A stretch of DNA of 64,000 nucleotides, from positions 558,001 to 622,000 of the forward strand of contig JAQQWL010000001.1 of assembly GCA_038363925.1 (NCBI GenBank), read 5' to 3'. The notes under the pieces were generated by a model. It saw only the letters and a list, made by a program, of their open reading frames with translations, ran no database searches and was not told where the DNA came from. This document shows positions 3,470 to 50,326 of the stretch, in pieces; position 1 is the first letter of the stretch, and every line of letters begins with the position of its first letter. The translations under genes were made by a program, and so were the position numbers. This DNA is from Apiospora phragmitis (lineage: Eukaryota; Ascomycota; Sordariomycetes; Amphisphaeriales; Apiosporaceae).

Positions 3470-4098
3470 CTAGAGGTCCGGAAGATGTCCTCTCTCTCTC
3501 TTACCATCGGCCCCAACGCATGTGTACCACGAATTATGTGTATCGTCGGGCATTTCCTGAAGGAGATGGTCTTTATCGAGACAGTGCGCCCCTCTGGAAA
3601 AGCAGCCACGACAGATATCGAAGTTTGCCGAGAAACATGAAGCGCAATGATAAAATTGCTCGCCCGTGAAACCCCGGCACCTGTCACAATATACCAACCG
3701 CAAACGCCATGCATCAACATCCACTGGGTGGGGAGGGTTTTCTTTTGTCCGAATCCAACCTCGCTCTGTAGCCGAGGGAAACCTCTCCAATAATCTCCAA
3801 GCCGGTTCTCGTGAAGCTGGATTGGCAGATCGACAGATTTCAATGATTTGTGAGATGTACCTGGGAACATCTTGGTCGAGGGACGGTAGATAGGCTGGAT
3901 CCACATGAGGTTAGCTGCATACTTTGTCCGGGCTCGTGTTACACCCGGCTAGCCCACAGAGTGTGTATGAGAGCACCGCTTCCAGGCCGTTGGCGACACG
4001 CCAAATCATGAGTCCTAGTTGGTAGAGGTCGGTAGATGGAGACGCTTGTAGAAAACGCCGGGTAGAGTCGAGTATCGCCATATCGCGGCACTCTGGGG

Positions 4099-4127
4099 GT
4101 AACGTATGTCACCCCATAACCGACACC
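4099..4127 (+). repeat. Left TIR of Fot1-like copy A
   Basis: Begins GTAACGTATGTCACCCCATA and ends ACCGACACC. It pairs with 5888-5916 in inverse orientation, and a related end lies at 19,559-19,582. Confidence 0.85.
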
Positions 4128-5887: not shown

Positions 5888-5916
5888 GGTGTCGGTTATA
5901 AGGTTATATACGTTAC
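5888..5916 (-). repeat. Right TIR of Fot1-like copy A
   Basis: Reverse complement of the left end with four differences, two of them C->T. Confidence 0.85.
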
Positions 5917-6025
5917 ATTAAATAGTGTGTCCTCGTTATAATAGAAGCGTTCGTTAAACTAGGCATGACACATTAAGTCGTTATTTAAATCGACGCCGAT
6001 AAAATTCCTGATCAGGTCAGCTAGT

Positions 6026-6155
6026 TATTACGATCGGCGGGTTAGTCCCCCGCGGGGTAGCACTTAAGGCGTAGAATTAAATAAAAATAACCCGAAGAGT
6101 TATTTTTAAAGCTTTTATTTTATAACGTAGTAATTAATTTATATATATTATAATA
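6026..6155. repeat. Left terminal direct repeat of TRIM-like element
   Basis: 130 bp, starts TATTACGATCGGCGGGTTAG; heavily C->T changed relative to the right copy. Confidence 0.75.
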
Positions 6156-6390
6156 TAATAACTTTTCGTTTTTATTAAATAAGAGACGTAGGTTCGATTC
6201 TTATATTTATTAAATAAAAGCTCTTTTTAATTACTTAAGTAAGATCGCTAATAAATAAGTAAGGCTTTATACGAACTAGTTACCCGTATAAAAGCCTTAG
6301 AGTTTCTTTATATCGAGCTTAAATAAATTATATAATATTAAGGGTTTATTACCTTAAGCATAAGGGCATACCTTTAAAGAGAAGGCATAG

Positions 6391-6520
6391 TATTACGATC
6401 GGCGGGTTGGTCCCCCGCGGGGTAGTACTTAAGGCGTAGAATTGGACAGAAATAACCCGAAGAGTTATTTCCGGAGCTTTTACTTTGTAACGCAGTGGTT
6501 AGTCTACACATACTGTAACA
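6391..6520. repeat. Right terminal direct repeat of TRIM-like element
   Basis: 130 bp, starts TATTACGATCGGCGGGTTGG, ends CATACTGTAACA. Less mutated than the left copy. A short open frame over it (6442-6624) is not a gene. Confidence 0.75.
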
Positions 6521-6620
6521 CTAGGGTTCCAGCTAAAAATCCCGAGTTATGTAACGAGGCGACTATGGAAACAATCTGCCAGCATTTTTTCTCTCGACGT
6601 TTCCAGGTAATCATGCTTGA

Positions 6621-9600: not shown

Positions 9601-10930
9601 CCGTAATATTATACGTGATTCGTTTATATCGTTTTTTAATATTAACTAAAAAGTTCGCGATTTCTTTCCGTATTTCTTTATCGTTATAGGTTATAAATCC
9701 TTTATCGACGGTTTTAAGTTAATATAAAGCGTTTTTTTCTTATTATTCGAGTTTAAGGTAATTAACGATTTATAATGAAATATAATTTCTTTATACTTTA
9801 TTATCGAGTAGCGATTTAATATAGACTTTTTTTATACTTATTATTAATATAATATACTCGTAAACAGCTCGATTATTTATTATTTAATATAGGGACTTAT
9901 TTTAGTCCGCTTATTATTATTATTTTATAATAAGCGGCATTTATTTTTTAAGCGCTACTCTTATAAGTAATTATCGATTTTTTACGATCGTTTATTATAT
10001 TATTACTATTATTCCCTTTATTCTTTATAAAGCGTTTCTTAGTATATTAGCGGAGCTGTTTTTATACTTTTCTTTATATGAAGTATTATCTTTAGTATTT
10101 AAAATTTAGGTTTTTCGAGTAGTTTAAAGGTTTATTAAGTTCGTTATAATTTATAACGTATCCCATAAACGAATGTCCTATATAAGCGAATATCTCATTT
10201 TTTTTATACCTCTTTCGATAAAATATAAGTTAATTTTACCACAACGTATTTAATATATTAAAATTAATCGGAATCTTTATCTTTAAATACTTCTATATTA
10301 TTCTAATAAGTACGCGTATTATACCCGGGCTCTCCGTAGATTTTATAACGTTATAAACGTATCTTAAACGTCCTCGTATAATTACTCCTCCGACGTAATT
10401 CGTTTTATATCTATTTATTAACGTCCTTTTAAAACTACAAGTCTTTTCTAGCTTATATACGAAGTAATCCTCTATTTTATAGCCGTTTCTTTTTCGTATA
10501 GCGGCGCCGGCTAAGCATCTTATTTACCTTTTAAAATGTCGCGTTCTTACCTTTTAAAAGAGTAACTTAATATATAATATACGTTATAACTTTTACGATC
10601 TAATTAAAACTAATTAAAATAAACGTTAAAAAGTTATTTTAATACTTTATAATACGGGTTTAAACGTATTCGGTTAAAAATTAAGCCTTAATTAAATTAT
10701 TTAAAGTTTTTAATTCTTAAGGAATAAATAAGCTAAAAAACGTTCCCGGAGGTATTAAAATATATAGCTTTATATTTAATTATAAAATAGTATATTCCGG
10801 ATTATACGAAACGAGTCCTATTTTTTAAAAGCTTTATATATTTAAAACGGTAAAAATCTCTTAAAACGCTTTTAAAAACGTTAATAAAAAGTCCTCCTTT
10901 AAAATATAAATAATATATATCCGTATAAAA
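6621..10930. repeat. Unassigned RIP-degraded AT-rich DNA
   Basis: About 4.3 kb of extremely AT-rich sequence with stops in all frames. The first 80 bases are less AT-rich and may hold the lost upstream part of the kinase gene. Islands of slightly higher GC (7170-7200, 9150-9200, 10,300-10,520) suggest old coding sequence, but no motif can be named with confidence. Confidence 0.6.
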
Positions 10931-10976
10931 TAAGCCAGCTGACGGTGCTACGGTCACCTCATGTAACGGCGACCCT
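10931..10976 (+). repeat. Left TIR of the 10.9-kb element
   Basis: 46 nt, pairs inversely with 12,806-12,851; six mismatches, four of them transitions. Confidence 0.8.
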
Positions 10977-12805
10977 TAAATTTAAATAGCTCCCGACAGC
11001 ATTATATATAAATTAGTATATAAACTAGTCAGCTTTTAATTTATAATTAATTAAATAATACTATCTTCTTCCTTTTTTTTCCTCTTTTCGATAGGTTGTA
11101 AACTTAACGAGTTAGTATTATAACGCGCGATTTAAGATGTTATAAATAGCTCGTTAATAAAATAAGCCGCCGAAAAGCATAATATCTTTAAAATAATTCT
11201 AAAGGCTCGGATTTATGGCCGCAAAACTATAAAATAACGGAATAAGTCTTTTTAAACCTTAATAATAGCGGAAGAGTTTTAGATTATAATTTAATACCTT
11301 ACGTAATATAATTTAAACTACTTACCGGCGTACGTTATTTTTTGGATATTTGTTTAACGAATTTTTTAAATTAACGGGATTAATATAATACTCGGTAAAT
11401 ATTAAGTTAAAAGATTTATTACTCGTTATTTATTTATTAGTACTATTTTTTTTAAAAGGATAGATTTCTTAAAGCTTAATGTAACTTTTATATAAAAAAT
11501 TATCGAGTTTTTTAAACGGCTTAATAATCTTATTTTAAAATCGATCCTTCTAAAGTTTCGGTTTAATATCGACGAGATCGGTAATTAGCTCGATTATAAA
11601 ACGAATATAATAATTATTAAACTTATTAAAATAAAGAAAATACTAGTTATAAACTCTTTTAACCGAGAATAGGCTTTTACGGTTAAATATAATAACGCTT
11701 TAGGCCGAGCCTTGCCTCCTTTTATTATATTTAAAGGTTAATAGGTCTAGTAGTAATAGTTTCCGGAGGAGGAGGACTCGCTAACGAATGCTATGGAGGA
11801 TTAAGTTTTTACGGCATCCCTTAAAGGTTAGACCAATAAAGAGCTGGCCTTGGTGTGGTTAAATAAGGTTTTTATCCCTTATATAAAGCTTTAAAACGAA
11901 GATTAGTGGCGGCTTATTATCCTGGATAGCCACGCTAGCCACGTAAGCGAGAACTTTATTATAACGTGCTTAAAGTATAAAATATAGCTTCTCTTCCTTT
12001 TGGCATACTCGTTGCACCTATTATAACCCCCGAGATCTTAATCCCTTTAATATATTAAAGGATACCTACCATTAGAAAATAACCCTATACTATATAGGGT
12101 TTAATAATATAAATATAAGTAAAAGGACTTCTTCCGGTATTACGAACTAATTAAAAGGTTTACCTTTTAGCCGTATATAATAGCTAGCGGCTAGGCCGTA
12201 ATTAATATATTCCCTCGTAATATTAATAAGCCTCTTAATAACCGAAACCGGAGGATAGAAAACCAAGCAGAAGTAGGACTATCTAAGCTTCCCCCCAACG
12301 TTTTCGATAAATAATTCTCCTCTATAGCGTTACTAATATTTATAACTAGCCGCTTAATTAAAAAGTTAGCAGATACGTTTAATAATAATAATATTATTTT
12401 TAATAGCGCGACGCGCCGGGTTTTATTCCGGAAGCTCTAAAAAAGTCTAAATACTTTAAATAACTAGATCGGCTAATTAGAGCACGAGAAATAACTTTTA
12501 AAAAGTAATTTTAAAAAAAAGAAGTAAAAAGAAAAAAAGAGTAATATTTAACCTTAATTAAAAGTTTACGTATATACGAGATACTATAATAATTAAAAGG
12601 GAAATAAATAGCGTTATACCGGAACCCTAGGCTATCACTCGTTTATCGTTAGCGCCGAAAGCCGTTATAATTAAATATAACTCTAAATCTGAGATTAGGA
12701 GTGTTATAAATACGTTTCGAGACTGAAACGGTATTTTTAAGATTTTGTAGTAATTTTTAATTGAATTATTCGTATTATTATTATATAGTATTATTATTAG
12801 TTTTT

Positions 12806-12851
12806 AGGGTCGCCGTTATATTAGGTGACCGAAGCACCGTTAACTAGCTTA
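12806..12851 (-). repeat. Right TIR of the 10.9-kb element
   Basis: Ends ...ACCGTTAACTAGCTTA on the plus strand; inverse partner of 10,931-10,976. Confidence 0.8.
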
Positions 12852-12949
12852 TTTAATTTCTTTTTTATACGCCTTTTTTAATATACGAAAATAGCCGATA
12901 TTAAAAAGTTAAAGCTTATATAATAAATAAAAAAGTATATTAAATATAA

Positions 12950-13370
12950 TAATCGAGTTCTTTTTATAATAAAGCTCGAAAATTATTAAATAATAACTTT
13001 TATAGCCGTTTAAAACTAAAAAATAATAACGACCTTTTATATAATATTTAATATATTAATTAAAATATTAAATCTAGTCTTCGCCTTTTTATTCGTAATT
13101 TAGCTATTTTTAATAACTACGATCACCTAGTCCTTTAATAATAAGCTATTTTCGTACTAGGAAGAGAAGTGCGTTTTCCCGGTAAAAATAATATATAGAG
13201 GGATAGCGTAATCGTGTAATCCGACGCCCTAAATAATTATAACTTATTCCCGGTTCTTTTACTATATTACCTTAAGCTTTCCGCGTTAATCGGAAGTGGT
13301 TACGACTATTTCGAACGAGATTTAGCTTATAAAAAAGCCGGTCTCGTTGAAGTTATAGATATCCTCTTTT
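12950..13370 (-). pseudogene. Fot1-type transposase relic (minus strand)
   Basis: Reading the minus strand from about 13,370: YNFNETGFFIS (family YNFDETGF, first catalytic Asp region), then VVTTSD-RGK, NRE-VIII-GVG and YAIPLYILFLPGK. This is the central core of a Fot1/Tan1-like transposase. Stops are TAA/TAG at Gln-like positions. Element ends could not be found; it lies between the 10.9-kb element and the copy starting near 13,740. Confidence 0.65.
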
Positions 13371-13739
13371 TTAGATCCCGTATTTATAAATTATATTCCG
13401 TACGAAAATAAATTACGCGCGATACGCGTCGAGATCTTTATAAAGAACTCTTTAATAATCGATTTTTCGATTAAAATACGTCTAGAGGTCTAATTATTAT
13501 TATATAAAATTAAAGGCCTAATTAACGCCGACGCGTCCCGCGTCGCGTAAATTAAATAATCGATTCGCTATAGCTTTTTATATACTTAATTTCGAGTTAT
13601 TTTAAAACGCTTAAAACGTTAAATTAAGCCTTTTTCTTTATTTTTTAATTCTATACTTATAAAAAGAAAAACATTAATATAAAATTAATTATAAGAAAAT
13701 TAATTAAAAATACATAGCTCGCTTATAAAGCACGTTACT

Positions 13740-15169
13740 TAATTATTAAAAGGTGTTTTAATAAGCGTTAAAACTAATTCGGCGACGAAATTAAGCGTCG
13801 ATTTTTTATTAACTGTCGAGGGTAACTTTAAACGTAGTTAAGCGACACCTTAATCCTTTAAAATAATATATTTCGATAATAAAGGTTTCAATCGATCCCG
13901 CGGATAAATCCTAGCTATTTTCTAAACATTTTAAATTATTAAAAGAGTTAAAACGTTAATCTTAGCTTAGCGATATACTTTTTATATATTTAATTTAATA
14001 CGCTTAAATTTAAAAACCGCGTTTAAGTATACTTTTAAATAGATTCTTAGCCTTTTCTTTAATAGCTCGAAAACCTTTATATTTAAAACCTATATAATAT
14101 AGCTCGTAAAAAATAAGTTATATTTTATTAATAAAATAAAGCTATAAAAAATCTTTGTTTATATATAAATTATAACCGTTATAAATTAAAACGACTTATT
14201 TATTATTATAGCGAGATCGAATATAAAGAATAAAAATATTTTAAATTAAATCTAATATTATAGGATTATTAGTCCACCCTCTAAGCGATGCTTTAAACCG
14301 CTAGTTATCTTAAAGATGGCCGTCTTAGTCTAGAAACTACTAGCTTTAAACGTCGGCCCCTTAAAAATAACAAGCGGCGAGAGGGCTACGCTATTATAGC
14401 CTATATACTCTATAGTAATAATCTATTCCCCCTTTTTCGACGTATTTTTTAAAAATTAAATAACTAATAGCTTTAATAACTACTTAATGGTTATTATTAA
14501 TGCTTTAATTAATACTTATTTTATTAATATTATAAAAGCGTTTAAAAGAAATATTAATTAGTTTTAAAATATTAAATTTATCAAAAAAGATATTAATATT
14601 AATAATAGTTATTTTATTAACGTAGCTATAATTAATTATTTTAAACTTAATAGTTTTAATAAACTCGTTTTTAATTAAAATTCGAATATATTAACGTTAC
14701 CTTAACGTATAAAACGCCTCGAAAGCGTTTAATATTTATTAAGCTATATATTTAAACTTAATAAGCGTTAGTGCGAAGCTTAATCTAGCTTAGCTAATAA
14801 CTTAATTCGTTAATTAATTCTTTAAAAATAATAACAATACCTGCCGGTCTTTATTCAGCTCTTATCGCGTCGGTATACCGGCTAGGCGCCAGATAACGTA
14901 CGATCGGTCGGCATTTTATCTACGAACGGCTTCGCGAACATTTAGTCTAAGCTTTACGTCACGTATTATAACCTACGCGCGTTTTTAAGTATTAAACGAT
15001 AATATAAAAAAATAATTAAAAAAACCGAATAAAATAATAATAATATATATAATTAAAAGGTAAAATTAATAAAAGAAATCTATATTATTATTTAAAGCTT
15101 TAACGCGTTTATAACGCGAAACACAGTGGTTCGTAAAGGGGGTGGTCTATAGAGGAGTGCCTTAGCTTA
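13740..15169 (-). mobile_element. Inverted partial copy of the 21.4-kb TIR element
   Basis: The minus strand follows the plus strand of 21,423-22,860 over most of its length, including the transposase segment LSPLVIFKG and the block around the second catalytic region. Its outer end (15,125-15,169, ...GTGCCTTAGCTTA) is a RIP-altered version of the perfect 28-nt TIR at 23,300-23,327. The other end could not be located; the part matching 22,860-23,327 is missing or unrecognisable. It is inserted at a TA (15,168-15,169) inside the second Fot1-like copy. Confidence 0.7.
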
Positions 15170-15719
15170 CGAGCTAAAGATTACTACCACGCTAACCACC
15201 CTTAATATTTTAAGTAGATAAAGCCTTTTTATAAGCTCTAATATAGTATATAAAGAAGTTTTATTTCTTAATAAAAATAAGAAACTAATCTCTTTTTAAT
15301 ATTAAACTTTTATAAAAGTAAAAACCTTCACATTAAAAGGTTAAAGAATATATAATAAATAAAGGGGTAAAAATAATAAGTAAATATTATTTTAATAATA
15401 AAATAATATAAAATCGTCGGTTATATAACTATTATACGTATTTAAAATAAGTAAACGAGTATTCTTTAAGTTATTTAAAGTAGTTTTTAATATAAAGATA
15501 TCTTCGAGTTATTTAATAGCGATTTCGTTATTCGTTTAGCCTTTTTTACTTATATCGAACTTTTATTCTTTAAATTTATTTAGTTTTTAAGAGAACTATT
15601 ACTCTTAGACCGATTTACCTTTATAAATTACTAAAAGAAAAATAGCCCTATTAAGTATTAATATATATTTTAATATCGTCGTTTAATACTTTAAACTAAG
15701 CTGTTTTTAATAAATAAAA

Positions 15720-15926
15720 TATTAGAATAGCAGGAATTAAGATTTTCTATATTACTTTAAAAAAAGTGCTACGTACTTACGCGCACGAACCCCTTTCTTA
15801 TTTTATTAAGAGGGGCATACGATACCCCTCGTAGCTCGTATTAAAAATAGATATAAATAATAAAATAAGAACGATTAAACCTCGATTAAAACCGGAATTA
15901 TTATATATACGAGAGCTTATTTAATA
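15720..15926 (+). repeat. 5' LTR of copia element
   Basis: 207 bp; contains GATTTTCTATATTACTTTAA and ATACCCCTCGTAGCTCGTA shared with the 3' LTR. Confidence 0.85.
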
Positions 15927-18697
15927 TTAATTAATAATTACTCGTAACGATTATAAATTAATAAGAATAAAGAAACGGTTTTACGCCTTTATCGATATAA
16001 AAGCGACCGTATTAAAGAGCCCCGAGAATTTCCGCCCGTTAGAGATTCGGAGGAAGAGCCGAATTAAATTAACTGTACGAAGAGGAACCCTTTTTCCCGA
16101 GTATATATTATAAGGAGGAGACTAGGTTTTAAATTATACGCGAAACTAGTTAAGCTATATATAATTATATATTTAAATAATTTTATTATACGATTTATAA
16201 AATAATAACCTTTATTAAATAGAATTAATCGCGGTCGGCGAATTGGGATCGAGCTTAGACGTATCGAACCTAGATAAACCGACGATTTTAAACCCCGAAC
16301 CGTTTATATATGAAAAAGTATTTTAAAATATCGGAATCATTTTAATAGTTTAAAAAAGAAACGTTAACCTCGTTTTTTAAAAACTCGAACCTTTAAACGT
16401 ACTTTTTAAAAAAATAATACCTAAACTATTTATAATATACCTTATACGATACTTTTTAAAATATTATATATTAAAAATAAAAAAAACCTTTTTTAAAAAA
16501 TTGTTTATTATAAAATTTAACGAATAAACCGAATACTAGTTCGGCTAAATTAACCGTATATTTTAAAAAGAGCTTTTTAATTATTTTAAAAAATACGGAG
16601 TTAATATATTAACGAACGGATCTTTTAAAGTTAAGCTTATAAGTCTAGTGTTACCGGCCGATCTTATATATTAATAAAACCGACCGGCAGAACCGATTTC
16701 GGAAACTTAAAAAGAGGATGTTCTATACTCTTCCCGAGAATAAATAATTAAAGAACCGCCGCCTAAGCGAGAGACACCCGGTCTCCGTACGGAGTAATCG
16801 TTCGCGACACTATAGGGCACTCTAAGACTAACGTTTAATCCCGGAATCTTAAATACTTTAGGCCCGACGTCTAACCCTGGATTCTTAAATATCTAAGCGT
16901 CGTAAAACATTATCCTTTTTCTTTCTCCGACTCCAATACCGCCGGACCAGACGGCACGATTATCTAGTCTAGCGTATATTACGAAATACGATATCCCTCT
17001 AAGCCGAGCTATTTATAACGGTAAAATCGATTAAAATAAGATCGTTACTTTTTCGAAGGTATAAAAAAAAAAAGAACTATACCGGCAAGCTTTACGACAT
17101 CTTTTATAATAAAGTATAGATATTTATTAAAATATATTAACGGCTAGATATATTAAAAAACTAATATTATATAGTTTTTTTAAATACTTTTTCTGGCCGT
17201 GCGGAGGTATTCTATTTTAATTATATCGGACTTAAAAAGAGATAGGATAAGATATATTATTTAATAGATTCGTACTTTAATATAATAATAAATTACGTAT
17301 AATATTTTACGGATTAAATAATAACCTCTTTTATACGAGTAAAAAATAAAAACGTTAAAAAATAACTTATTAAAGTTTTAAAAATCTTATTAAATAAACT
17401 CTAGCTTATATAACGAGCCTTCGGAAAAGGATTTAAAAAAAAGATCGCTCTCTATACCTCCGTCGTAAAAGCTTATCGAGGAGTTCCGAAACTTTCACCA
17501 GCCCTTATCCACTAAAAGCTAATATATAAAGCGCTATTCTCGGACCTTCGCGTATCGCTAAATATAGCAGCGGATTAAAAGATCTCGGAACGATACTTAA
17601 CGGAAAAATTATATCGATACCCGGCTAAAAATATATACCTAATTAATAAACGGTTTATAAATAATTATACACGAGAAAACTAATTAATCTATAATAATAA
17701 ATTACTATATAATAACCGACTATTAAGATAAGAAAGTAACTAGCGACCCGTTAACACCTTTTAGCTAAGGTTATCGTATAAAAACCGGCAGTTTAAACAA
17801 AAAACCTACCGAATCTACTATAAATAAAACTATTAATTAATAAATCACTTAGCCGAAAAATAACCCCGTATAATAATCTAATACCTCTAAACGTATAATA
17901 ACGTGGAACAAGATCTCTTTACTTAAAAAAAATACGGGGATTTCGTCCGAAACTAGGAAAGGAAAAAGGAAAAGCTAAAAAACGACGAAAAAAAGTACGA
18001 CTATTTCGATCCGGAAAACGTATAATAAAATATTACTTACCTAACGGACGCCGCGTTTTATTACCGGCTTATTAATAAAAATATTTACTCGATAAATATT
18101 TAATTAAATTAGGAATAACGAACGAGAAAAGACTAATAATCGATATTATATCACTCCGAAAATTATATAAAAAAAAGGAGATCTCGGAAATCTGCTAGGT
18201 CGACGGCCGAAATAACCTTATAAACGCTTTTACTAAAAAATCCTTAAATAAAGCCCTCGAGCAGATAATCTCGATAAATAGCCTTACCGTATATATAAAA
18301 GCATATATCGAGCGGCTAGACTCGCACGGCGAATAAAAAAAAAAAGAGATACGATCTTTAATAAAATATAACGTAATTTAATATATAAAAGCGCGTACCT
18401 ATTACTATTATTATTTTTAAACAGTTCTTTCTAATTTATAATAAGAAAAAAAACGCGTTAATATATAATAATTTTTCTTTAATACCGTTATTATTATTAA
18501 ATAATTAAAATAACTAATTAAAAAGACCTGCTATTTAATAAAAATAATATTAAAAAGGTATAGCATTACTTATACGGCTTAAACAGGTACCGAATACCGG
18601 ATTAACGCAACCCATCCGTACGAGACCTTTACGACGGGAAGACTCGTCTTAATAAGGGGAGCTGGCTAAATCTATCGTTAAAATAAAAAGTTACTAG

Positions 18698-18903
18698 TAT
18701 TAGAACAGTAAGAACTAAGATTTTCTATATTACTTTAAAAAAGTGCCACGTACCTACGCGTACGAACCCCTTTCCTATTTCATTAAAAGGGGTATACGAT
18801 GCCCCTCGTAGCTCGTACTGAAAATAAATATGAATAATAGAATAAGAACGATTAAACCCCGATTAAAACCGGAACCACCGTACGTACGAGAGCCCATTTA
18901 ATA
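18698..18903 (+). repeat. 3' LTR of copia element
   Basis: 206 bp; less C->T altered than the 5' LTR (for example GTGCCACGTACC versus GTGCTACGTACT). Confidence 0.85.
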
Positions 18904-19762
18904 TAAAACGTAATTTTAAACTGCTTATTATAAGGCTATTACCTCTTTAGCTTTTTAAAATACCGTGCTCGTTAATATTATACTTATTTATAAGTTTAAT
19001 AGCTTAAATTTAAAGTATACGTAATTTAATTAAAAATTAAAACTTAATTACTTTAATTAATACTTTATTAATATACTAAGAGTCGATATAACGTTACCTC
19101 TTTATTTATAAGGCTACGTTAAAAAAATAAATATATCTAGTTTTTACCTAATAATATAAGGCTACTATAAAGGGTTAAAACGTGTTAAGCTAGTTCCTTA
19201 ATTTATATATACATTAATATAACGCTAAGGGCTTTTTAAACTAAAATCTAGTCTGCTAGATACTTCTCTTAAACTAGAGAGAGCTTTTAATAAATAGATT
19301 TTAATTCTTAACATAACTATCGGCCGTGAAGTCGATTAATAAAGGTAGACCGTAAAATACCCTAATAAAGGGCAGCCTTATAAATAGATTCGCCGCTTGC
19401 CACATCTTAGATGGCAGCAGAGATGTCGTTTTCGATATATGAACGCACTATTAGTGAATTAGTATATATTTAAAAGAATGAAATAATTCGGATCAGAATT
19501 CGTTAAGAAATCTCTTTTTGAATCGAAATGGCGGTGAATCGTGGTGGAGGTTGACAGGGGTGTCAATTATGAGGTGACGTACATTAATATATTCGAAGAC
19601 CCCCTATAACTAAAAAACAGCCTCAACGAGATTATTATAACACCAAGTGCAGATCTTGCCAAGCAAGACCTCACCACTCTTTCCGTGACTTACATATATA
19701 AACATAGTAGTAGATACTTATTAATCCCACACAAAGTAGCCTTTCGAGCCGCCGCCAACGCC

Positions 19763-21103
19763 CTACCTCGCTCGCGCCTTGATGAGATCAGCCGCCTTCT
19801 CCGCCACCGCATACACGGTCGTCTGCGAGTGTGTGCCCGGGATGAGCGGCATGACGGACGCGTCGACGACGGCGAGCCGCCGGATGCCGTGCACGCGCAG
19901 GTCGGCCCCGACGCAGCCGCCCAGCGCCGTCGGCATCATGGCGCAGGTCCCGCTCGGGTGCGCGTTGGAGGGCCGCACCAGGCCCGCGGACACCAGCGCG
20001 GTCCACATCGCCTCGTCCGTCTGCGCTGCGAGGCCCGGCGCCAGCTCGACGGGGCCGTACCTGGCCAGGAGGGGCGAGGTGGCGTACAGGTCGCGGATCC
20101 AGCGCACTGCGGCTAGGACCACGGCGCGGTCCGCTGGGCTTATGTTACCAAGAGTGTTGTTGATGTTGCTGTTTGTGCTAGATGGGGCCAGAGTAATGGT
20201 GCCGCGTGACAGCGGTTTATTCAATCCGCTGGTCCCGAGCCCGCCGGCCGTCAAGGGATACTCGATGGCAGCGGCGTCTGGGCTCCCCAGGTGCCGCCGC
20301 AGGATCGCACGCTGGGCTCGGTAGCCCGCCAAAGCTTGGGGGAGGTGTGGTAGATGCCGGGCAGACCGATCAACTCCTCATCCTCCTGTCGCCGCTTACT
20401 GCTGCCGGGGTCGGCGACGGCGTCCATGATGGCAGCGTAGGCGGCCGCGCTCGTGAAGTTCCGCAGCGGCAGGAACGCGGCCGTGTTGCTCCACGCCACG
20501 GTATAGGGCCCTGTGCGGTTGCCCTCGTACTCGGCCCACGCGCTGGCGTTGTAGGTCGCGTTGCTCGCCAGCGTGCCCGGGTTCGGGACCGCGAGACCGC
20601 TGGTCAGGTTCCACGACGCCATCATCTGCGGGTGGTCCTGGAAATTGGCCCCGACCACATCAGCCATCTGCACAGTGGTCCTCAGGTTCTGGAGCTTCTC
20701 GAGCGGCGCCGAGGTCACATTCCAAAAGTCGATCCCCAGGTTCGGGAACTTGGCCACAGCGCGGGGAATCATGGTGTTGGGGCTATCATTGATATATCCA
20801 TGTTCAAGCACAAGTAAACTCTCTATGGCTTGTTAGTATCATCCCCTAAGGTGACTGGAGGATATGTATGCCCCTGAGCTGTGTTGAGGTTGAGAAAAGG
20901 GGTTGAGAAACCTAGTCCGTACTTTTCGGGTCCTCAGATAGTCGATTTGCAACAACGAGCCCAGAAGTCCCGCCGCCGATCACTATGTAATCATAGGATT
21001 CCTTGACTGTTCTGCCATCGTATGAGGTGGCTGCCTTGGTGACATCCAGTAGCAACCATGTTATAAGCAAGCCACGCAACCCACCACTGAAGAACAGATC
21101 CAT
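19763..21103 (-). pseudogene. Secreted GMC oxidoreductase, internally deleted
   Basis: FAD-dependent glucose-methanol-choline oxidoreductase, extracellular type. ATG at 21,103 opens a signal peptide (MDLFFSGGLRGLLITWLLLD) followed by YDYIVIGGGTSGLVVANRL, the FAD dinucleotide motif. A 100-nt intron (20,823-20,922) leads to VLEHGYINDSPNTMIPRAV. The next residues, NVTSAPLEKLQNL and VVGANFQDHPQMM, normally lie some 200 residues apart in the family, so a large internal part (including the GMC signature around GGGSVVNGM) is deleted in frame. A frame change near 20,330-20,345 then leads to AGYRAQRAIL and the C-terminal active-site region (HPSGTCAMMP, VVDASVMP, THSQTTVYAVAEKAADL). It sits on a GC-rich island between two RIP blocks. 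Deletion and shift make it non-functional. Confidence 0.85.
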
Positions 21104-21422
21104 GTTGACTGTGTCGATTGCAGAGAGAAAATGGAGAGGAAGAAAAGGCAAAGAGCAGGATACGCGATAAGCCAGATCCAACAGGTCTACAGCGCGGCAG
21201 CTTTCATTGCTTTTTATATAATCTATGCAGCTAACTCTCTGTTTACCACCTTTCTTTCTTTTCTTAGTTTCTTATTGTCTACGCACATTTCTGTCTAGGC
21301 GATGTCGCAAGCTGTTGCCCCAAAATGGTGGCTACACAGTATACAAACATCATCAGCAAAGGGAAAGAAAGGGGACTTTTCCCACGATAGGCCTAATTGC
21401 GTCTTCCGGGCAAGGGATAGAA
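21104..21422. other. Spacer upstream of the GMC relic
   Basis: Presumed promoter side of the GMC gene, running to the TA at which the next transposon is inserted. No gene seen. Confidence 0.4.
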
Positions 21423-21450
21423 TAAGCTAAAGCACCCCCTCACGGGCCAC
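21423..21450 (+). repeat. Left TIR, 28 nt
   Basis: Perfect inverse match to 23,300-23,327. The word CACGGGCCAC recurs once more just inside (21,456-21,465). Confidence 0.9.
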
Positions 21451-23299
21451 CCCGTCACGGGCCACCGCGTTTTACCCCACGAACGCGTCTTTTTACCATG
21501 CATCTCAATTAAAAAACTCTTTAATTTAATTATTACTTTTTATTTTTTAAAATTACTATTACCCTTATTCTTTTCGCTTATTTCTACTCTTTATAACGAT
21601 ATTTTCGTTTAATATTTAAAAGCGTGCACAGGCTACCGTACGCGACATAAAGCTCGGAGCAGCTATTCGCGAATCCGCCCGTAAATAGTTAACCACCCGA
21701 TTATATATTTAACCTCGTCTCGCCGGTATATTTATTAGAAATAAGTTTATTAAAGATTAATAAGTCTTATTATTATTTTTAAAAAATGAATTAATATATT
21801 AAGTTATTAATTAAGTTTAAATTTATAGTTTAACGAATATTAAACGCTTTTAAAGCCTTTTATAATTTAAAATAATAATAATATACTCGTTTTTTAATTA
21901 AAAATAAGTTCGTTAAAACCGTAAAGTCGAAAATAATTAATTATAACCGGGTTAATAAAGTTATAATAATAAATATTAACGTTTTTTTTAATAAACTTAA
22001 TATCTTAAAACTAGTTAATATCTCTTTTAAACGCTTTTATAATATTAATAAAATAAGTATCGGCTAAGGCGTTAATGGTAACTATTAAGTAATTATTAAA
22101 ACTATTAATTATTTAGCCTTTAAAAAAGACGTCGAAAAAAAGGAATAAATTACTACCCTAGAGTGTGTAGGCTATAATAGGGTACCCCTCTCGCCGCTAG
22201 TTATTTTTAAAGGGGCCGACGTTTAAAGCTAGTAGTTTTAAGACTAAGACGGCTATTTTTAAGATAACTAGCTGTTTAAAGCGTTGCTTAAAAAGTGGAT
22301 AAGTAATATTATAGCTTTAGATTAAATTTAAGACATTTTTATCCCTTATATATAATCTCGTTATAATAATAAATAAGTTGTTTTAATTTATAATAACTAT
22401 AAATCGTATATAAATAATAATTTTTTATAGTTTTATTTTTTAAATAAAATATAACTTATTTTTTATAAATTATATTATAATTATATAATATAAGTTTTAA
22501 ATATAAAAGTTTTTAATTTATTAAAGAAAAGGTTAAAGATTATTTTAAAAAAGTACTCGAATACGATTTTTAAATTAAAGCTTATAAAAATAGATATATT
22601 AAAAATATATTATTAAGTTAAAATTAATATATTAATTTCTTTTATAATTAAAAACGTTTAAAAAACGGTTAAGATTTATTCGCGAGATTACTCGAAGTCG
22701 TTATCGTTAAAATACGTTATTTTAAAAGATATAAAAATTACCCGGGTACGTTTAAAATTATCGGAAATAATTAAAAAAGAATTAATATTCGATTTTTTCG
22801 CCGAATTAATTTTAATACTTATTAAAATACCTTTTAATAGTTAAGAATTATAGAATAATAATTAAAAATTAATTACTATAAATTTTACTTTTAAAATACT
22901 TTTTTAATAGTTTTTTATTAAAAAAGTTAATAAAGCTTTAAATTAAAGTGTTAATAAAATTACGTATCTTAAAGCTGAAGTCGATTATTTTTAAACTAAA
23001 CTCGATAAAAAAATTACGGAAATACGTTAAAAAGTAAAAATCGCATTAGGATAACGATTTATTTATATAGTTAATATACGCCGGGCTAAGCGAAGGCTAA
23101 AGGGTAGGGTCGTATACGAGGATAAAGCTAGCGACGTCGAAGTGTTAAGAGGGCCTCGTAACGCTATAAAAACTATAAAAAATAATAGCACGGAGGCGGA
23201 GGACTATATTATTATTAAAAATAACGAAAGATAGTGTATTTACGTCAATTCTAGCCGTAGAAATGGCTTTGATTACAGGGGTAAGGGTAGCTCAGTAAA

Positions 23300-23327
23300 G
23301 TGGCCCGTGAGGGGGTGCTTTAGCTTA
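23300..23327 (-). repeat. Right TIR, 28 nt
   Basis: Reverse complement of 21,423-21,450 with no mismatch. Confidence 0.9.
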
Positions 23328-24014
23328 TGCAGCTGGGCAACTTCTAGATTACATCATCACCACCAACGTGCATGGTCAGATGCGACCTTCGCAGGTGTAT
23401 GCGGCGTGAACCTGGTTCCCACCTGCGAGGGGTGTTCGGGTTGGCTCGGTTGCTTCGGTATTGCCACATCGGGATAAGTATATCTCACTGCCTATATTCA
23501 ATGCAAAACTGCGTTGGACGCTACTTCTCCCCCAATTCGCCCCTATTGGCCCGCAATACGATTCCAGATACACTGGATCTTTACTGCCCACCCTTCGGTT
23601 GGAATTGAGATCAAATTTCCCCCGACCTCAGATCTCCAGAAGGTATATCGATTTGGCGATTTGGTTGTGCTATTAACCCGCCTGGCCATACGATAGATAC
23701 ATCGTGTTATACCAAACGATCTTACAGAGCAATTTGGTTCAACATGATATTATTGCGAACGAAGGGACACAAATATCTGTGGTCATACCATACTATCCAT
23801 CATCAAAAGCTAGTGTAATGAAGAGAAAGAAATAGTCAAGGTGGCATCGGGTTAGCTAAGTAGGTGAGCTAAGTCAGAATTGGGCATATAGCTGGGCTAC
23901 TTAATTTATTCTATGCAGGTGTCGTCGGGTCTCTCATTACTGACACGGTCAATCCTCAACACCGGCCAACGCTCCACCCGAAATGTTGTATCCTACTTCC
24001 CCCTTCTCCCCCCT
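23328..24014. other. Intergenic, no gene seen
   Basis: Normal-composition spacer. Short overlapping open frames at 23,372-23,696 on both strands have no recognisable features. Confidence 0.45.
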
Positions 24015-38048: not shown

Positions 38049-40532
38049 ATGGCCTCTGGAAGGCCTCAGCCGACGCGGACCAATTCCCGCCAGGGAGCTG
38101 ATCATGCCCCCTTGACACCGAGCGGTCTACGTCAGAGCCAGACACTCTCCTCCACGTCCTTGCACCGGGAGAACCAAGACGAGACCTATTCTGCCTCTCC
38201 ACCAGACGCGACAGACGTTCAAGACTACGAAGTCTCTCGACCCGGTCCGAGTTCTCCAAAGTCTCCCGACGACTCGACCGAAACGACCTCACTGCTCCAC
38301 GAGCATGCACACTCCGGTCCGTGCAATCATGGCACCTTCTCGCCCGCGCAGAGAGCCCTATGGGCAGCAGCTATAAGACGACGACCGATACCGATACCGG
38401 CTCAATCGCGGGTTCGGAGCAGGACGGCGATCGCGCTGCTAGGATATCTTGGAAGAGAGCCCTGTCGGCCAAGGTTAAGAGCAAAAAGATGACCAGCTCC
38501 GGCGCTCTGGCAGAACAGCACGGATTCAAGGACTCTCCGCTGATGTACCTGTCATACTATGTTCCTTGTCTGATTTGGATGCGACAATACAACTGGACCT
38601 GGCTCAAGGGCGACCTTACGGCGGCCCTTACGATAGCGTCCATGTATCTCCCCATGGCGCTTTCTTACGCCGACAATCTTGCACATGTTCCTCCGATCAA
38701 TGGTCTATACGCTTTCGTATTCAATCCTCTCATCTATGGGTTGTTGGGAAGCTGCCCGCAGATGGTCGTAGGGCCTGAAGCTGCAGGATCGTTGCTGATA
38801 GGTTCCATCGTTAAGGGCAGCATCGACTCGGGAGCTGGCGATGACAATAACGGTGTCTTGCAAGCCAGAATCGCCGGCGTTGCCGTTGGAATTGCGGGTG
38901 CGACTGTCTTCATCATGGGAGCATTCCGTCTGGGCTTCCTGGATAGTGTTCTTAGTCGACCTTTCCTACGCGGTTTTATCTCGGCCATTGGCGTCGTTAT
39001 TTTTATTGACCAACTAGTCCCCGTACTGGGATTGACCAAGGCTGCTGGGCGCGCAAGTGCTGTTAAGCACCCCAGCTCTGTGGATAAGCTGAAGTTCCTA
39101 TTCACCAACCTCGAGATATCCACAAGCTTTCTGCCATTGTGGGTGTTGTGAGTTTTACTGTTATTATGGTGCTTCGGTAAGTAAACCGGCCCAATCTCAA
39201 CCTGCTCGAAGCTCACCATGTCACAGTGAAGTAAAGAAGCATGTTCAGCCACGATACCCTTCTATTGCATATTTCCCTGACCGCCTTATGGTTGTAGTAT
39301 TGTCTGCTCTGTTAGCTTGGCGACTGCAATGGGACAAGCAAGGCGTTGAAGTCCTTGGAAGTGTCGAAGCCGCATCTGGCCAAACCTTCAGATTCCAAAA
39401 CCCATTTCAGCTGCAGCACATGCCACACATCCGTGAAGCCATGGGGACCTCCTTTTTGATCGGCATGCTTGGCTTCTTTGAGTCCTCTGTTGCCGCTAAA
39501 AGTCTTGGCACCGGTGATGCCATCGAAGGTATGCAGCTGAGCCCGAATAGGGAACTCGTCGCTCTCGGTACCGCCAATCTTCTCGGTTCTTGCTTCATGG
39601 CCATTCCCGCTTTCGGTGGCTACGGCAGAAGCAAGGTAAACAAGTCCACGGGTGGCACAAGCCCTATGAGCTCCATCTTCGTTAGCATTATAACTGTTTT
39701 CTGCATCATATTCATTCTGCCTTGGTTCTACTATATCCCGGTAAGGAGGATTCTCCTCGAATTAGAACATCAAAACAACAGACTGACGACTTCTAGAAAC
39801 CTGTGCTTTCCGCCCTGATTATAGTGGTGGCTTATTCCTTAATAGAGGAAGCGCCCCATGATATCTCGTTCTTCCTTCAAATCCGTGGTTGGACCGAGTT
39901 GGCGCTCATGGCCGTCATTCTCCTGGTGACAGTTTTCTTCTCGCTCAACCTTGGTATCGCCATCGGTATTGGATTGTCTCTTTTGCAGGTAATTCGGCAT
40001 GCCACACGCCCGCGCATTCAGATCTTGGGGCGTATTCCTGGAACGGACAAATTCGAGAACGCCGAGGAAAACCCTGAGCACCTAGAGTTCATTGAGGGCT
40101 GCCTTATCGTCAAGATTCCAGAGCCCCTCACTTTCGCCAACACTGGCGAGTTGAAGAATCGGCTTCGGAGACTGGAACTTTACGGCACAGGCAATGCGCA
40201 CCCTGCTTTACCACGCCTTCGTCCCCACAAGAGCAATCGCAATGTCATATTTGACATCCATGGCGTAACGTCACTGGATGGCTCTGGGGGCCCAGGTGTT
40301 GGAGGAAATTGTAAGGGCCTACCGCGAACGTGGCGTCCGGGTCTGGTTCAGTCGCTCGCCCAGCAAGTCCAACAAGATCTGGTCCCTACCACAACGAAGT
40401 GGCATTGTTGAGTTGGTGGGCGGAGAGCGTCATTTCGTGCATGATGTCAAGGATGCTCTGCGGCTGACCGAGTCGGATGACTTCGAGGAACAGAGCGCCT
40501 GCGCAGCGGCAGGCGACACTACCCCACTCTAA
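38049..40532 (+). CDS. SulP/SLC26-type anion transporter with STAS domain (frameshifts)
   Basis: Sulfate-permease-like membrane transporter. A Ser/Thr-rich cytosolic N-terminus is followed by SLC26 core motifs: SYYVPCLIWMRQYNW, IASMYLPMALSYADNLA, GLYAFVFNPLIYGLLGSCPQ, VVGPEAAGSLLIG, RGFISAIGVVIFIDQL. Later, SFLIGMLGFFESSVAAKSLG and GSCFMAIPAFGGYGRSKVN. Introns 39,177-39,226 and 39,741-39,796. The C-terminal STAS domain carries VIFDIHGVTSLDGSGAQVL and GIVELVGGERHFV. Three one-base shifts are required: CCC at 38,343-38,345 (one C short), near 39,112, and GGGGG at 40,286-40,290 (one G extra). No nonsense codons. Topology suggests plasma or vacuolar membrane; the exact anion is not deducible. Confidence 0.87.
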
Positions 40533-40908: not shown

Positions 40909-42039
40909 CTAATTCGATAGGCCATCTTGGGGCAATTTAAATAGCCACTTTTCGAACTCGTTATCACTCAAACCCTTTGGTATCTTGTCCACACCCTGTT
41001 TCCATTGTAGCTTGCCACTGTACAGCGGATGGGCCTTAGGGTTCTTGACCCAATCCATGGTCTGCGCAGCCTCGGGGCTGTCCTTGCCCTCGCATGCCAC
41101 CGTGGCCTCGTAGTCCCGCTCAGCGAAGACCTTGGCGCGCGCCTGGTCGCCGTTGGCGATGGCGATCTGGAAGGCGTCGTGGTACGCCCGGCTGACCCAG
41201 GCATCGGTGATGCCCTCCTCACGCAGCAGCTGCAGCTTGCGCCAGGCGTCGTGCAGCATCGCCTCGGCATGCTTCACAATGCGCTTGCCGTCGCCCAGCT
41301 TCTCGTCCAGGTCGTTGATGTCCTGGCGCCGCCGGTCGCTCGCGTCGCGCGGCAAGCCCGGCGGGAGCGAGCACGTCGCGCACGCGCACGCGAAGCCGAA
41401 GTGGTCCTTCAGGATCGCCTGCCGCTGCGCCCAGGGGAAGAGCGCGGGCAGGTACGTCAGGGTGATCTCCTCGCCCGGCGGGATGTCGCGCGCCGCGTGC
41501 ACCGTCATGCGGCCCAGGTCGGCGCGCCACTTGTTCTGCGCGTTGGGCACGCAGGCGTGGTTGATGCGGCACGCGGCCAGGAACAGGCCGGCCTCGGTGG
41601 CGCCGCCGCCGCCCATGGGGTGCACGTTGGTGCTGGCGGTGCCGACGAGGGGCCCGTTGGCCTTGTGGGCGTTGTCGAGGGTCAGGAACTCGCGCGCCTG
41701 GCTCTTGGAGGCCTTCTTCAGGCCCAGCGCGATGATCTGCTGCATCGTCTTGACGTCGTTCACCGTCGTCGGCACCACGAACAGGGGCGCGTCCGCCATG
41801 ATCCGCTCGCCCCGCGCGATCTTCCGCAGCGCCACGGCGCCGTATCCGGCCCCCGGGACGGGCTTCACCACCCACATGTCCCCGCCCATATGGTTGGCGG
41901 AGATGTTGGGATCCCCCTTCTCCGGAACCGTCGCCACGGCCGCCGAACCCTCGCGGGGCTTTTCGGGCTCGTCGGAGATTTTGAGGGCTGCGGCGCCCTT
42001 GACGACGTCATCGCTGTTGGGGGCCATGGTTGCTACCAT
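40909..42039 (-). CDS. SET-domain protein (SMYD-like)
   Basis: Single-exon, intact, 376 aa. SET elements in order: GYGAVALRKIARGERI (residues 65-80, N-SET), INHACVPNAQNKW (159-171, SAM/substrate pocket Asn-His pair), GEEITLTYL (189-197, catalytic Tyr region) and a post-SET cysteine cluster FACACATC (216-223). The split between the first and second blocks, with MQQIIALGLKKA in between, is as in SMYD/SET5-type proteins, which methylate histones or other proteins. Target unknown; no other domain seen. ATG at 42,039 and another at 42,027 are both possible starts. The 41,100-41,950 segment is very GC-rich, which also creates long open frames on the other strand. Confidence 0.85.
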   Translation of the reverse strand: MVATMAPNSDDVVKGAAALKISDEPEKPREGSAAVATVPEKGDPNISANHMGGDMWVVKPVPGAGYGAVALRKIARGERIMADAPLFVVPTTVNDVKTMQQIIALGLKKASKSQAREFLTLDNAHKANGPLVGTASTNVHPMGGGGATEAGLFLAACRINHACVPNAQNKWRADLGRMTVHAARDIPPGEEITLTYLPALFPWAQRQAILKDHFGFACACATCSLPPGLPRDASDRRRQDINDLDEKLGDGKRIVKHAEAMLHDAWRKLQLLREEGITDAWVSRAYHDAFQIAIANGDQARAKVFAERDYEATVACEGKDSPEAAQTMDWVKNPKAHPLYSGKLQWKQGVDKIPKGLSDNEFEKWLFKLPQDGLSN

Positions 42040-42998: not shown

Positions 42999-45479
42999 AT
43001 GTCGCCGAGCGTCGACCTTGTCAATGAGTACCTCGCCAAAGGATCATGGAAAGGAGCGGAGAACGCAAACTCGACCTTCTCCCACCAGGGGCTGATGCAG
43101 TATCTCTCCAATCACATCATCGCACAGTACTGGGTTGAGAAGGTCTATACAGACGAAATACGTCAATACGACCGCGAGAACCGTTTCCATATTCACGATT
43201 TCGGCTTCCTCGGCGCTTAATGTTCAGGGTGGTCAATCGAGGACATCCTCCTTCAAGGATTTGGCGGCGTCGATAACAAGATCCAGCGTCGACCACCCAA
43301 GCATCTCAACACCGCCCTTAACCAGCTCGTCAACTTTCTGTTCACCCTACAGGGCTAACTGGCCGGAGCACAGGCACTTTCTAGCTTCGACGCATACCTT
43401 GCGCCCTTCGTTCGGAAGGATGGCTTGACGTACCCTGAAGTCTTCAAGTACGTGCAGAGCTTCGTCTAATCTCTCAACGTGCCTACTCGAAGCGGATTCC
43501 AGGCCCCATTCACCAACGTGTCGATGGACCTTGTTTGCTCGAAGAAGCTTCGAGATCAGTGCGTCGTCATTGGCGGCCAACTCAAACTAGAATGGGTTTA
43601 TGCGGAATTCCAGGAGGAGATGGACATGCTCAACAGGGCCTTTGCCGAGGTGGTGATCCAGGGAGATGGGGACGGCAATATATTCTCCTTTCCGATTCCG
43701 ACCTATAACCTCTGGGAGGGGATCGACTGGGAATCCCCGCGTTGGAAACCGATCTGGGAAATGACGGCCAAGTACGGGATTCCCTATTTCGGAAACTACT
43801 ACAACAGCAACTTGGACCCCGAGGACTTTCGGTCCATGTGCTGCCGTCTTCGTCTCGACATCAGTAAACTTCACTGCCGAGTGGGTGGCCAGTTTGGCGC
43901 AACCCCTTTGACCGGGTCTTTGGGTGTGGTCACGGTCAATCTTCCGAATATAGCTTATCGCTCTAGCGGTTCCAAGGACAGATTCATATCAGAATTGTCG
44001 GATACCTTGAGGGTGGCGAAGGACTCCCTAGAGATCAAACGCAAGACGGTGGATGAAAACGAGGCTCTGTATCATTATGCTGCACACTACCTTTCTGCAA
44101 CAAAGCATCGCACCGGATCCTGCTGGACGAACCACTTCAGCACCATCGGTGTGGACGGCATGAATGAAGCTCTGGTTGCTCTGCTTGGCGAGGGCATTGA
44201 CAAACAGAAAGAGTTTGCACTTGAGGTCTTGGAGTTTATCAAAACTCGGCTTCAGGACTTCCAGGACGAAACTGGCAACTTGTACAACCTGGAGGCCACC
44301 CCAGCCGAAAGCACGTGTTACAAGTTGGCAAAGAGAGACAAGAAACTGTTTCCGGAGCAGGAAATCCCAACTTTCTACACCAACTCGACCATGCTTCCGG
44401 TGGACAGTACAGATGACCTCTTTGAAGCTCTTGGGCATCAAGAGAATCTTCAATGTGCCTACACTGGTGGTACTGTCTTCCACGCATTCTTGGGCGAGCA
44501 ACTGCATAGTTGGGAGCTGGCCCGGGACCTGGTTAGGATATTGACAGCTCGATTCCGCATCCCCTATGTCACCCTCACGCCGACCTTCAGCATCTGCCAG
44601 ACGCATGGCTATCTGCCTGGTGAGCAACCGCAATGCTCAGTCTGCGGTGATTCGACGCTCGTTTATTCACGCATTGTGGGCTACTTCCGTCCAACCCGGG
44701 ACTGGAACAAGGGCAAGGCGAAGGAATTCGTCGCCCGCAAGACCTACCGATACATTACGAACTCGCCGACGGTGGGCAATGGGAGCGGGCTTCTGGACCT
44801 GGAGCGTCAGATCGCCGATATTGCTGACCTCCCAGTGGCAGGTTACATCAAGAACACGCTCAGCGACTATCCCGGTAAAGTGCAGGCGGCCATAATGTTC
44901 ACATCGCGTTGCAACCTTGCCTGTCCTTGGTGCCACAACGGGCCGTTGGTTCGTGACGAACGCGACGGTATGACAAGCCTCGACGTCTTTAGGCATGTTT
45001 CGTCCACCACGCACAAGTCGTTGGTCATTTCCGGAGGTGAGCCGACCATCCACAAGGGCCTGGTACCTTTCCTGCGAATCCTCAAGAACGCCGGCATCAG
45101 CGTCAAGCTGGACTCGAACGGCACGGCGCCCGACGTGCTGCGGTAGGTGTTTGCGGAGAAGCTCGTCGACTTCGTCGCCATGGACATCAAGTGCGCGCTG
45201 GAGAACTACAAGGCTGTGACGGGCAAGAAGATCGACCCGCGCGTGCTCGAGGACAGCATCGAGCTGATCAAGGCGAGCGGCGTCCCGTACGAGTTCCGGA
45301 TGACGGTGGTCCCGTCGCTGGTGGACGTCGAGGACCTCTTCGAGGCCAAGCGGTTGGCGGGCGGGAAGCTGAAGCTGCAGCAGTTCCGCAAGGGGGAGAC
45401 CAACTTGGCTCGGCGCTACAGGGACCTGGAGCAACACACGGACAAGGAGTTCAATGCGCTGGTCGCCCAGTTGGCGTAG
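42999..45479 (+). pseudogene. Class III anaerobic ribonucleotide reductase fused to its activase (NrdD-NrdG)
   Basis: One continuous frame of 827 codons, no intron, two enzymes. Residues 1 to about 600 are NrdD, the oxygen-sensitive glycyl-radical NTP reductase: NSTFSHQGL, HIHDFGF (64-70), CSGWS (Cys75), FTNVSMDL, SMCCRLRLD (Cys281/282, thiyl-radical region), CWTNHFSTIG, a zinc site (CQTH, CSVCG) and the glycyl-radical loop SRIVGYFRP (Gly561) with WNKGKAKEF. No ATP cone precedes it. Residues about 605-826 are the radical-SAM activase NrdG: CNLACPWC (Cys638/642/645, 4Fe-4S), ISGGEPTIHKG (SAM site), KLDSNGTAPDVL and FVAMDIKC. Four in-frame stops occur: TAA at 43,218, 43,356 and 43,467, TAG at 45,144. 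All lie in otherwise uninterrupted conserved sequence with no frameshift. The family is bacterial/archaeal, so acquisition by transfer is likely. Start chosen at MSPSVDLVNEYL. As read it cannot give full-length protein. Confidence 0.88.
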
Positions 45480-48392: not shown

Positions 48393-50326
48393 TCAAGCGA
48401 GTTGTGTGACGAAATCCTCCAGCGGAACCAGGACACCATCCAAGACTTCCTGGAGAAACTTTTTATCACCAAAATCTGCTCGAGGCGTGAAGGCGCAGTC
48501 GATGCATCGTCTAATGGCTTCTGAGATGGGTTCATCGAAGTCCTCATACACCGTCTCCTGCCATCGCTTGGCCGTGCACAGGTCGGAGTAGTCGTTGGGC
48601 TGCCCGTTGCTCAGATATTCGTTGCGGAAGGGCTGTTGCTCCAGGCTCTGCTGATACAGGAGCTCGAGTAAGATGACGCCAAAGGCGAAGAGCGTGGCTT
48701 CTGTCCGCTGCCTCTTGGAAGCAACCGCTGACTTCAGTGTACCCGACAGCGATTCGTGGTGGATGAAAGATTGCGTCCGAGACACTACTGAGCCTCCTGG
48801 GTTCCTCATCACCTGGATATCATCCTTGCCTAGCCCTCCCGGGACCCACTGTGTTACTCCAAGGCTTAGAAATGTTCGAAGGATCCCAAGAGCTGTGACC
48901 ATTCGTTCTTTCAGAACGACTGCTGAAGAGGAAAACTGGTTCAGTGACATGATGCTCGAAGGGCCAGTGCCAATCTGGGAACTTGACTCGATCTTCAGAA
49001 CGATGTGTGCTGGTTCCTCTGTCTCCAGTATTTCCAATAACCCTCCATCTGTGAGAGGGGCTGTCATGAGATAGCATAGCTTGTCGATTACTAGTGGGTC
49101 GGTTTGAACCGGTACGGCAGCATCTGGAGGTTTGGGTTGATTGAGAAATCGAACCTGCCTGGGTGGCATCGAAGTCACGACTTGAGGTGGGCTTGTCGCG
49201 TTCCCAGTGGATGAGCTGGCCGTTAGGGCCGTCACTGGTCTTGGGGTCTTGCGCATGGCAGACTTCAGAGCAGACTTGACGAGTAGCTTTGACTTGTCTT
49301 TCCAAAGCGACTCCGTCATCGTCCCAGAGGGTTTCACAGCGGTCGAGATAGTCGCTGGAACGGCTATGCCTAAACTGTGTTTGTTTGCCTGTCTGATGAG
49401 ACTTTCGTGTTGGGCTTTAGTTTCGATATGGTGGCTGATCTCAGAAAGGTGATCGAGGGCTGTTGGCGCTTGTGGTCCCACCGACGCCTGTAAATCCAAG
49501 CTCCTGAAATCGCGTGTCATGAGTCGAGGCCTTCCAGGTTCACCCAAGACGATCTAGATCTCCCCCTTCATTCTCGACTCTGGGGTTGACACACGTGACC
49601 ACGTTGTCGATATTCCAAACAAGTGTGGCTTGGCGCAGGAACAGTCCTGTATGCTTTGTAGTGACCTCAAAAACCGTACAGAATGGGCTTGCAAAGTTGT
49701 GTAGATCCCTATCTGGTTGTACGGCCTGTTGGTGCTCATGAGACTCGTTTTTTGGAGATGCAGATAGATGACATCGTTTGTCTCCTTGAGCCTCGATAGA
49801 ATCGGTTTGCGCTTCTGGTTAATGCTGAAGAAGATTCGGTCCATCTCATACTGTACCCCTGTTTGCTGGGATAAAGTTACCTACAAACAGATTGTTAGTT
49901 CGCGGTGTCCCAACGGCTGTGTTTTGTGAAAGATACCTACCCTGCCGTCTTTTATGGGTAGCATGCCATACAGCTCGCTTAACGCTTTGCGTATGTGTTG
50001 AAGCCGACTCAAGAACCAGTCAAGGAATTGGTTTCCTATCTGATACTTGAGCGCGGCCTGGAATTCCTCGCTGGCCCAGATCGGCGAGTTCGACTTGAGA
50101 AATGCGGTGCATCTTTCGTCATCGAGATTGCACCGACTCAATAATAGTTGCATGTTCTGGACGAAAGAGTTGGACTCGTTCTCAACCGCCCAGATGAAGT
50201 CCTCGAATTCCGCCTCGTATTCCCACCACGTTTCTAGCGACGCCACATACGATTTTAATATCTTAAGGCCCTCCAGTGCGATAGGAATGCGCCAAGAACC
50301 AGCCCAGCAACTTCGATCCCCGACAT
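48393..50326 (-). CDS. DUF7580/HeLo-like prion-inhibition-type protein (frameshift and stop)
   Basis: Architecture of fungal proteins annotated as prion-inhibition and propagation/DUF7580, a group linked to heterokaryon incompatibility and cell-death signalling. ATG at 50,326: MSGIEVAGLVLGAF, then after a one-base shift at about 50,284 (CC for CCC) PIALEGLKILKSYVASLETWW, helical N-domain, 60-nt intron (49,881-49,940), VTLSQQTGVQYEMDRIFFSI. The C-terminal half is kinase-like without catalytic residues: EATLFAFGVILLELLYQQ, SEAIRRCIDCAFTPRADFGD, FLQEVLDGVLVPLEDFV, as DUF7580 proteins end. One in-frame TAG (49,554-49,556) lies between the halves and fits CAG->TAG. Function is inference from architecture; whether it is active depends on these two lesions being real. 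Confidence 0.72.

Follow-up and report, generated by a model that had tools for sequence, protein, structure and literature searches.

Four nonsense codons in a fused class III ribonucleotide reductase gene of Apiospora phragmitis, a putative pseudogene

The activase of class III ribonucleotide reductases (RNRs) is a radical-SAM protein that uses a 4Fe-4S cluster and S-adenosylmethionine to generate a 5'-deoxyadenosyl radical. This radical sets a glycyl radical in NrdD, and once the radical has moved from there to an active-site Cys, ribonucleotide reduction can proceed in the absence of oxygen. A fused NrdDG of bacterial origin was described in fungi and Phytophthora by Lundin et al. (2010, PMC3019208), where class III RNRs are listed for S. 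japonicus (which has a singleton nrdD as well), F. oxysporum, G. moniliformis, G. zeae, Nectria haematococca and three Phytophthora. A patchy distribution of NrdDG among eukaryotes is reported there, and one transfer from bacteria followed by spread among eukaryotes is argued for. A first-pass annotation of the DNA studied here had put forward, as its headline, a class III RNR fused to its activase in a fungal chromosome. Because fused fungal NrdDG was published in 2010 (PMC3019208), this headline is not new: the fusion and its bacterial origin are already known as a kind, and the feature of the present copy is its putatively disabled state.

The window, that is the whole stretch of 64,000 nucleotides analysed (G000:C1:558001-622000), belongs to a 2.9 Mb contig of a 52.7 Mb genome assembled in 19 contigs. 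All six motifs on which the first-pass annotation relied, HIHDFGF, CSGWS, SMCCRL, RIVGYFRP, CNLACPWC and SGGEP, are carried by a single reading frame at the coordinates and on the strand given for the fusion frame in Table 1. For profile searches this frame was translated with X placed at the stops. The match to PF13597 (NRDD) covers positions 1-562 of 562 (564.5 bits, E 3.5e-169), and radical-SAM PF04055 (56.9 bits) follows downstream of NrdD in the same frame. TIGR02495 (NrdG2) scores 144.7 bits (cut-off 131.15, E 2.1e-42), and the predicted NrdD and NrdG2 assignments are far beyond chance. Between the end of the NrdD match (residue 583) and the start of the NrdG2 match (residue 613) there is no stop, and the two domains share a frame, bearing out the annotated order of NrdD followed by an NrdG-type radical-SAM domain.

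CSGWS, SMCCRL and the C..C preceding RIVGYF all occur and line up with the solved NrdD structure 4coi. The Cys of CSGWS, aligned with a Cys of 4coi, is presumably the active-site Cys, and we take these motifs together to provide the active-site and zinc cysteines and the glycyl-radical loop. In the NrdG2 half, the radical-SAM CxxxCxxC motif is present as CNLACPWC.

Table 1. Features of the fusion gene and its neighbourhood (positions in the window)
Feature	Position	Strand	Basis
NrdD-NrdG fusion frame, four internal stops, putative pseudogene	42999..45479	+	motif reading and profile matches
NrdD domain (PF13597, residues 21-583)	43059..44747	+	Pfam profile match
NrdG2 domain (TIGR02495 residues 613-786; PF04055 residues 633-776)	44835..45356	+	profile matches
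Internal stop TAA, codon 74	43218..43220	+	frame reading
Internal stop TAA, codon 120	43356..43358	+	frame reading
Internal stop TAA, codon 157	43467..43469	+	frame reading
Internal stop TAG, codon 716	45144..45146	+	frame reading
Last 133 codons, GC3 0.96 vs 0.66 before	45078..45476	+	composition scan
Neighbour sulfate permease (PF00916 in two frames, STAS)	38603..40288	+	Pfam
Neighbour SET-domain ORF, 376 aa, open	40909..42039	-	Pfam and ORF list
Neighbour DUF7580 match	48414..48938	-	Pfam

The frame had been annotated as one of 827 codons, which is wrong, as four in-frame stops precede the terminal TAG at 45477. They fall within both domains, three TAA in the NrdD part and one TAG in the NrdG2 part; in a whole-genome profile search, likewise, the NRDD match contains 3 TAA and the NrdG2 match 1 TAG. 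The stop at codon 74 sits immediately before the Cys of CSGWS. With three TAA in the NrdD part there is no open frame able to give a class III enzyme, and the longest ORF of the fusion frame among those listed comprises 555 aa (43479-45146). Despite the four nonsense codons, no frameshift was found in the fusion gene. The best explanation, to which we assign a probability of roughly 0.78, is a putative pseudogene: a prokaryotic-type NrdDG, of the kind published for Fusarium and a small number of further eukaryotes, which the four nonsense codons would have disabled. This reading is supported by the stops themselves, by the failure to find a second copy and by a class I RNR elsewhere in the genome, while the lack of any frameshift among four nonsense changes and the conserved core weigh against it.

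Relatives were collected as 59 prokaryote loci from a scan of genome contigs, with both halves found in 48. After partial, near-identical and interrupted loci were dropped, 39 of the 59 entered the NrdD alignment and 38 of the 48 with NrdG entered the NrdG alignment. The stop columns were read in a set of 59 relatives made up of those 39 and 20 more (L068-L087), the latter being ORFs picked by motifs that include CxGW and exclude column 74. Columns 74 and 120 are invariant in all 59 relatives, one of these invariant columns being non-aromatic, and column 157 is aromatic in every one of the same 59. The residue kinds at the three TAA columns are chemically unlike one another. Column 716 varies among the 38 relatives aligned there, so the fourth stop, taken alone, might be mild.

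Outside these positions, 12 of 161 conserved NrdD columns are changed in the fusion gene. The two rows that come next in divergence, each with an open frame, have 19 of 168 and 10 of 166 such columns changed. The fusion gene thus falls between these two, with a well-kept core, and the counts do not speak for relaxed constraint. Neutral drift to four nonsense changes corresponds to about 101-118 substitutions, and the probability of no frameshift over 100 substitutions is 0.09, 0.018 or 0.0003 at assumed indel/substitution ratios of 0.03, 0.05 and 0.1. The lack of frameshifts together with the conserved core therefore leads to a recent loss, to erroneous stops or to rescue of the message.

That the stops are removed by splicing, or read as sense codons under an altered genetic code, we regard as scarcely credible. 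The row for the class I RNR large subunit (RNR1) of the same genome, which among solved structures matches class I large subunits best, has 0 stops in 524 codons. The 17 CCT chaperonin rows (partly overlapping, about 4,590 codons in all) contain 0 TAA; 15 of them are stop-free and the other two have one stop each (TAG, TGA) at exon-edge row overlaps. A changed genetic code was rejected on the lack of in-frame TAA in the RNR1 and CCT genes and, by these sequence comparisons, is an unlikely source of the stops. Moreover, no single reassigned codon meaning fits, because the three TAA columns differ in chemical kind.

Splicing has in its favour two in-frame intron-like stretches, of 45 and 135 bases, that span stops 157 and 716. 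Both hold conserved sequence, however, and no candidate of 40-150 bases with the required donor and branch consensus spans stop 74 or stop 120. Over stop 157 there are seven candidates with one shared donor, of which only that of 45 bases is in frame, and all were rejected for loss of conserved sequence or a shifted frame; over stop 716 the 135-base stretch is the one candidate and would remove conserved sequence. In the alignments to relatives, no gap asks for an intron at the stop positions. The gene had been called intronless, which holds only insofar as these alignments ask for no intron; the frame itself is not open.

Repeat-induced point mutation (RIP) was also considered as the origin of the stops and rejected. 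RIP-like indices are found in two AT-rich blocks of the window, at 4-19 kb and at 21-23.5 kb, with TpA/ApT of 1.35 and 1.31 and (CpA+TpG)/(ApC+GpT) of 0.23 and 0.59, whereas the fusion gene (0.59 and 1.13, respectively) is without this signature. Most 1 kb steps of these blocks (4001-19000 and 21000-23500) have 14-33% GC, and we infer that they fit a filamentous ascomycete host.

It is also conceivable, although we consider it unlikely, that the stops arose as mistakes in sequencing or assembly, in which case the gene would be intact and functional, like the NrdDG reported from Fusarium. The absence of a frameshift and the well-kept core would agree with this, as would the GC3 before codon 693 (0.66), which is near that of the host RNR1 (0.69). 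Against it, the RNR1 and CCT rows from the same assembly are without stops beyond those that exon edges explain, and, if long reads were used, four nonsense substitutions free of indels would be an uncommon kind of error. A gene under selection, with its message rescued, would likewise fit four stops, no frameshift and a conserved core: editing or read-through of the stops, confined to a particular tissue or condition, would allow the full protein to be made there and not otherwise. Filamentous ascomycetes are known to correct premature stops by A-to-I editing (PMC7306014). The editing named in that account is UAG to UGG, however, while three of the four stops here are TAA and would take two edits each, and tryptophan at the invariant non-aromatic stop column would be a strong change. 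We therefore see little chance of such rescue, and give just as little to its corollary that the stops act as a switch, leaving NrdDG unreadable in ordinary growth so that an oxygen-independent RNR would be made only in some tissue or condition.

If the gene is a disabled NrdDG, the radical-SAM half of its intact ancestor would have made a 5'-deoxyadenosyl radical and so placed a glycyl radical on the RIVGYF loop of NrdD, from where it would have passed on to the active-site Cys for oxygen-free ribonucleotide reduction, as in the class III family. In the present copy, translation would stop after 73 residues, just ahead of the CSGWS Cys, giving no class III enzyme, and dNTPs would be supplied by the class I RNR. 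The proposal that this gene provides DNA precursors under anoxia is thus not supported, because the product would end after residue 73. Since the core is well-kept, the disablement was probably recent.

In profile searches of the 52.7 Mb genome, a second NrdD or NrdG copy was not found; two other NrdG2 matches are both below cut-off. The class I RNR row present elsewhere is without stops. Two diverged matches to 5.8S rRNA were also seen (L063:1501-1594 and L064:1501-1608; 39 of 1413 candidates scored), away from recognisable rDNA; with this share of candidates scored, the main rDNA array may have been missed. Neighbouring genes were identified by a six-frame Pfam search of the 36-56 kb region. 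Contamination, which had been named as a possible objection, is unlikely, because the fusion gene lies within a 2.9 Mb contig and is adjoined by the two-frame sulfate permease, the SET-domain ORF and the DUF7580 match.

The closest prokaryotic counterpart is the class III RNR described by the NCBIfam model PRK08270 (NF006126), with an adjacent NrdG2. The fusion gene scores 800 bits against this model (cut-off 548), and NrdD identities run up to 54%. An ATP-cone is found in 7 of 10 scanned relatives, whereas a Pfam scan detected none in the fusion gene. Moreover, NrdD and NrdG, fused here, are separate reading frames in all 48 prokaryote loci with both halves, in agreement with the first-pass annotation that the two are normally separate in prokaryotes. 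The halves are in phase at 15 of the 48, and at 5 nothing but the stop codon of NrdD separates them, so the step to a fusion is short. A wider search covered 398 and 395 genomes (those of L003 and L010 included) at E up to 1e-60, with no more than two candidates from each genome scored, and gave a match in 135 and 112 of them, respectively. No bacterial NrdD-NrdG fusion was seen in these genomes, as all 23 rows that run past residue 700 hold at least one internal stop. A fusion inherited ready-made from bacteria was accordingly rejected for the loci and genomes covered (0 of 48 two-half loci, none in the wider search), though a bacterial fusion may exist elsewhere.

Compared with published eukaryotic NrdDG (PMC3019208), the locus shares the order of NrdD then NrdG in one frame, a fungal genome and the prokaryotic type, a likeness drawn from the published description rather than from alignment, and differs in its four internal stops. 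Horizontal acquisition, as first proposed, is plausible for a prokaryotic-type fusion in a fungal contig. It gains no supported placement from a quick tree of 60 rows without eukaryotic homologues, in which the window row has a long branch of 1.81, is held by no supported set and meets another long row. For the transfer event we rely on the published tree (PMC3019208), since eukaryotic homologues are absent from ours.

Codon composition changes abruptly within the fusion gene. The step in GC3 at codon 693 (position 45078) has a log-likelihood ratio of 32.9, versus a maximum of 9.8 in 300 permutations, and GC is 0.456 just downstream of the terminal stop. Mean identity to prokaryotes is 0.36 before the step and 0.34 after it (38 rows). 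In windows of 133 codons, GC3 is 0.79-1.00 in the SET ORF and 0.48-0.77 in RNR1, the permease ORFs and the DUF7580 ORF. A mosaic origin of the fusion gene is possible. The SET-domain ORF, about 1 kb upstream of the fusion gene, has an overall GC3 of 0.90. An antisense ORF of 256 codons (44667-45437, minus strand) overlaps the NrdG half; it has no Pfam match in a minus-strand scan and is perhaps a by-product of the high GC3.

Fused NrdDG is a published case of bacterial genes in eukaryotes and could permit oxygen-free synthesis of DNA precursors in fungi. Were the stops a switch, this would explain four of them without a frameshift and with a conserved core, while the three TAA would need more than the UAG-to-UGG editing named in PMC7306014. 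The putative pseudogene illustrates that a dead gene can escape notice when motifs alone are read. If confirmed, a broken NrdDG copy would mean that the trait can be lost, and would go some way towards accounting for the patchiness described in 2010.
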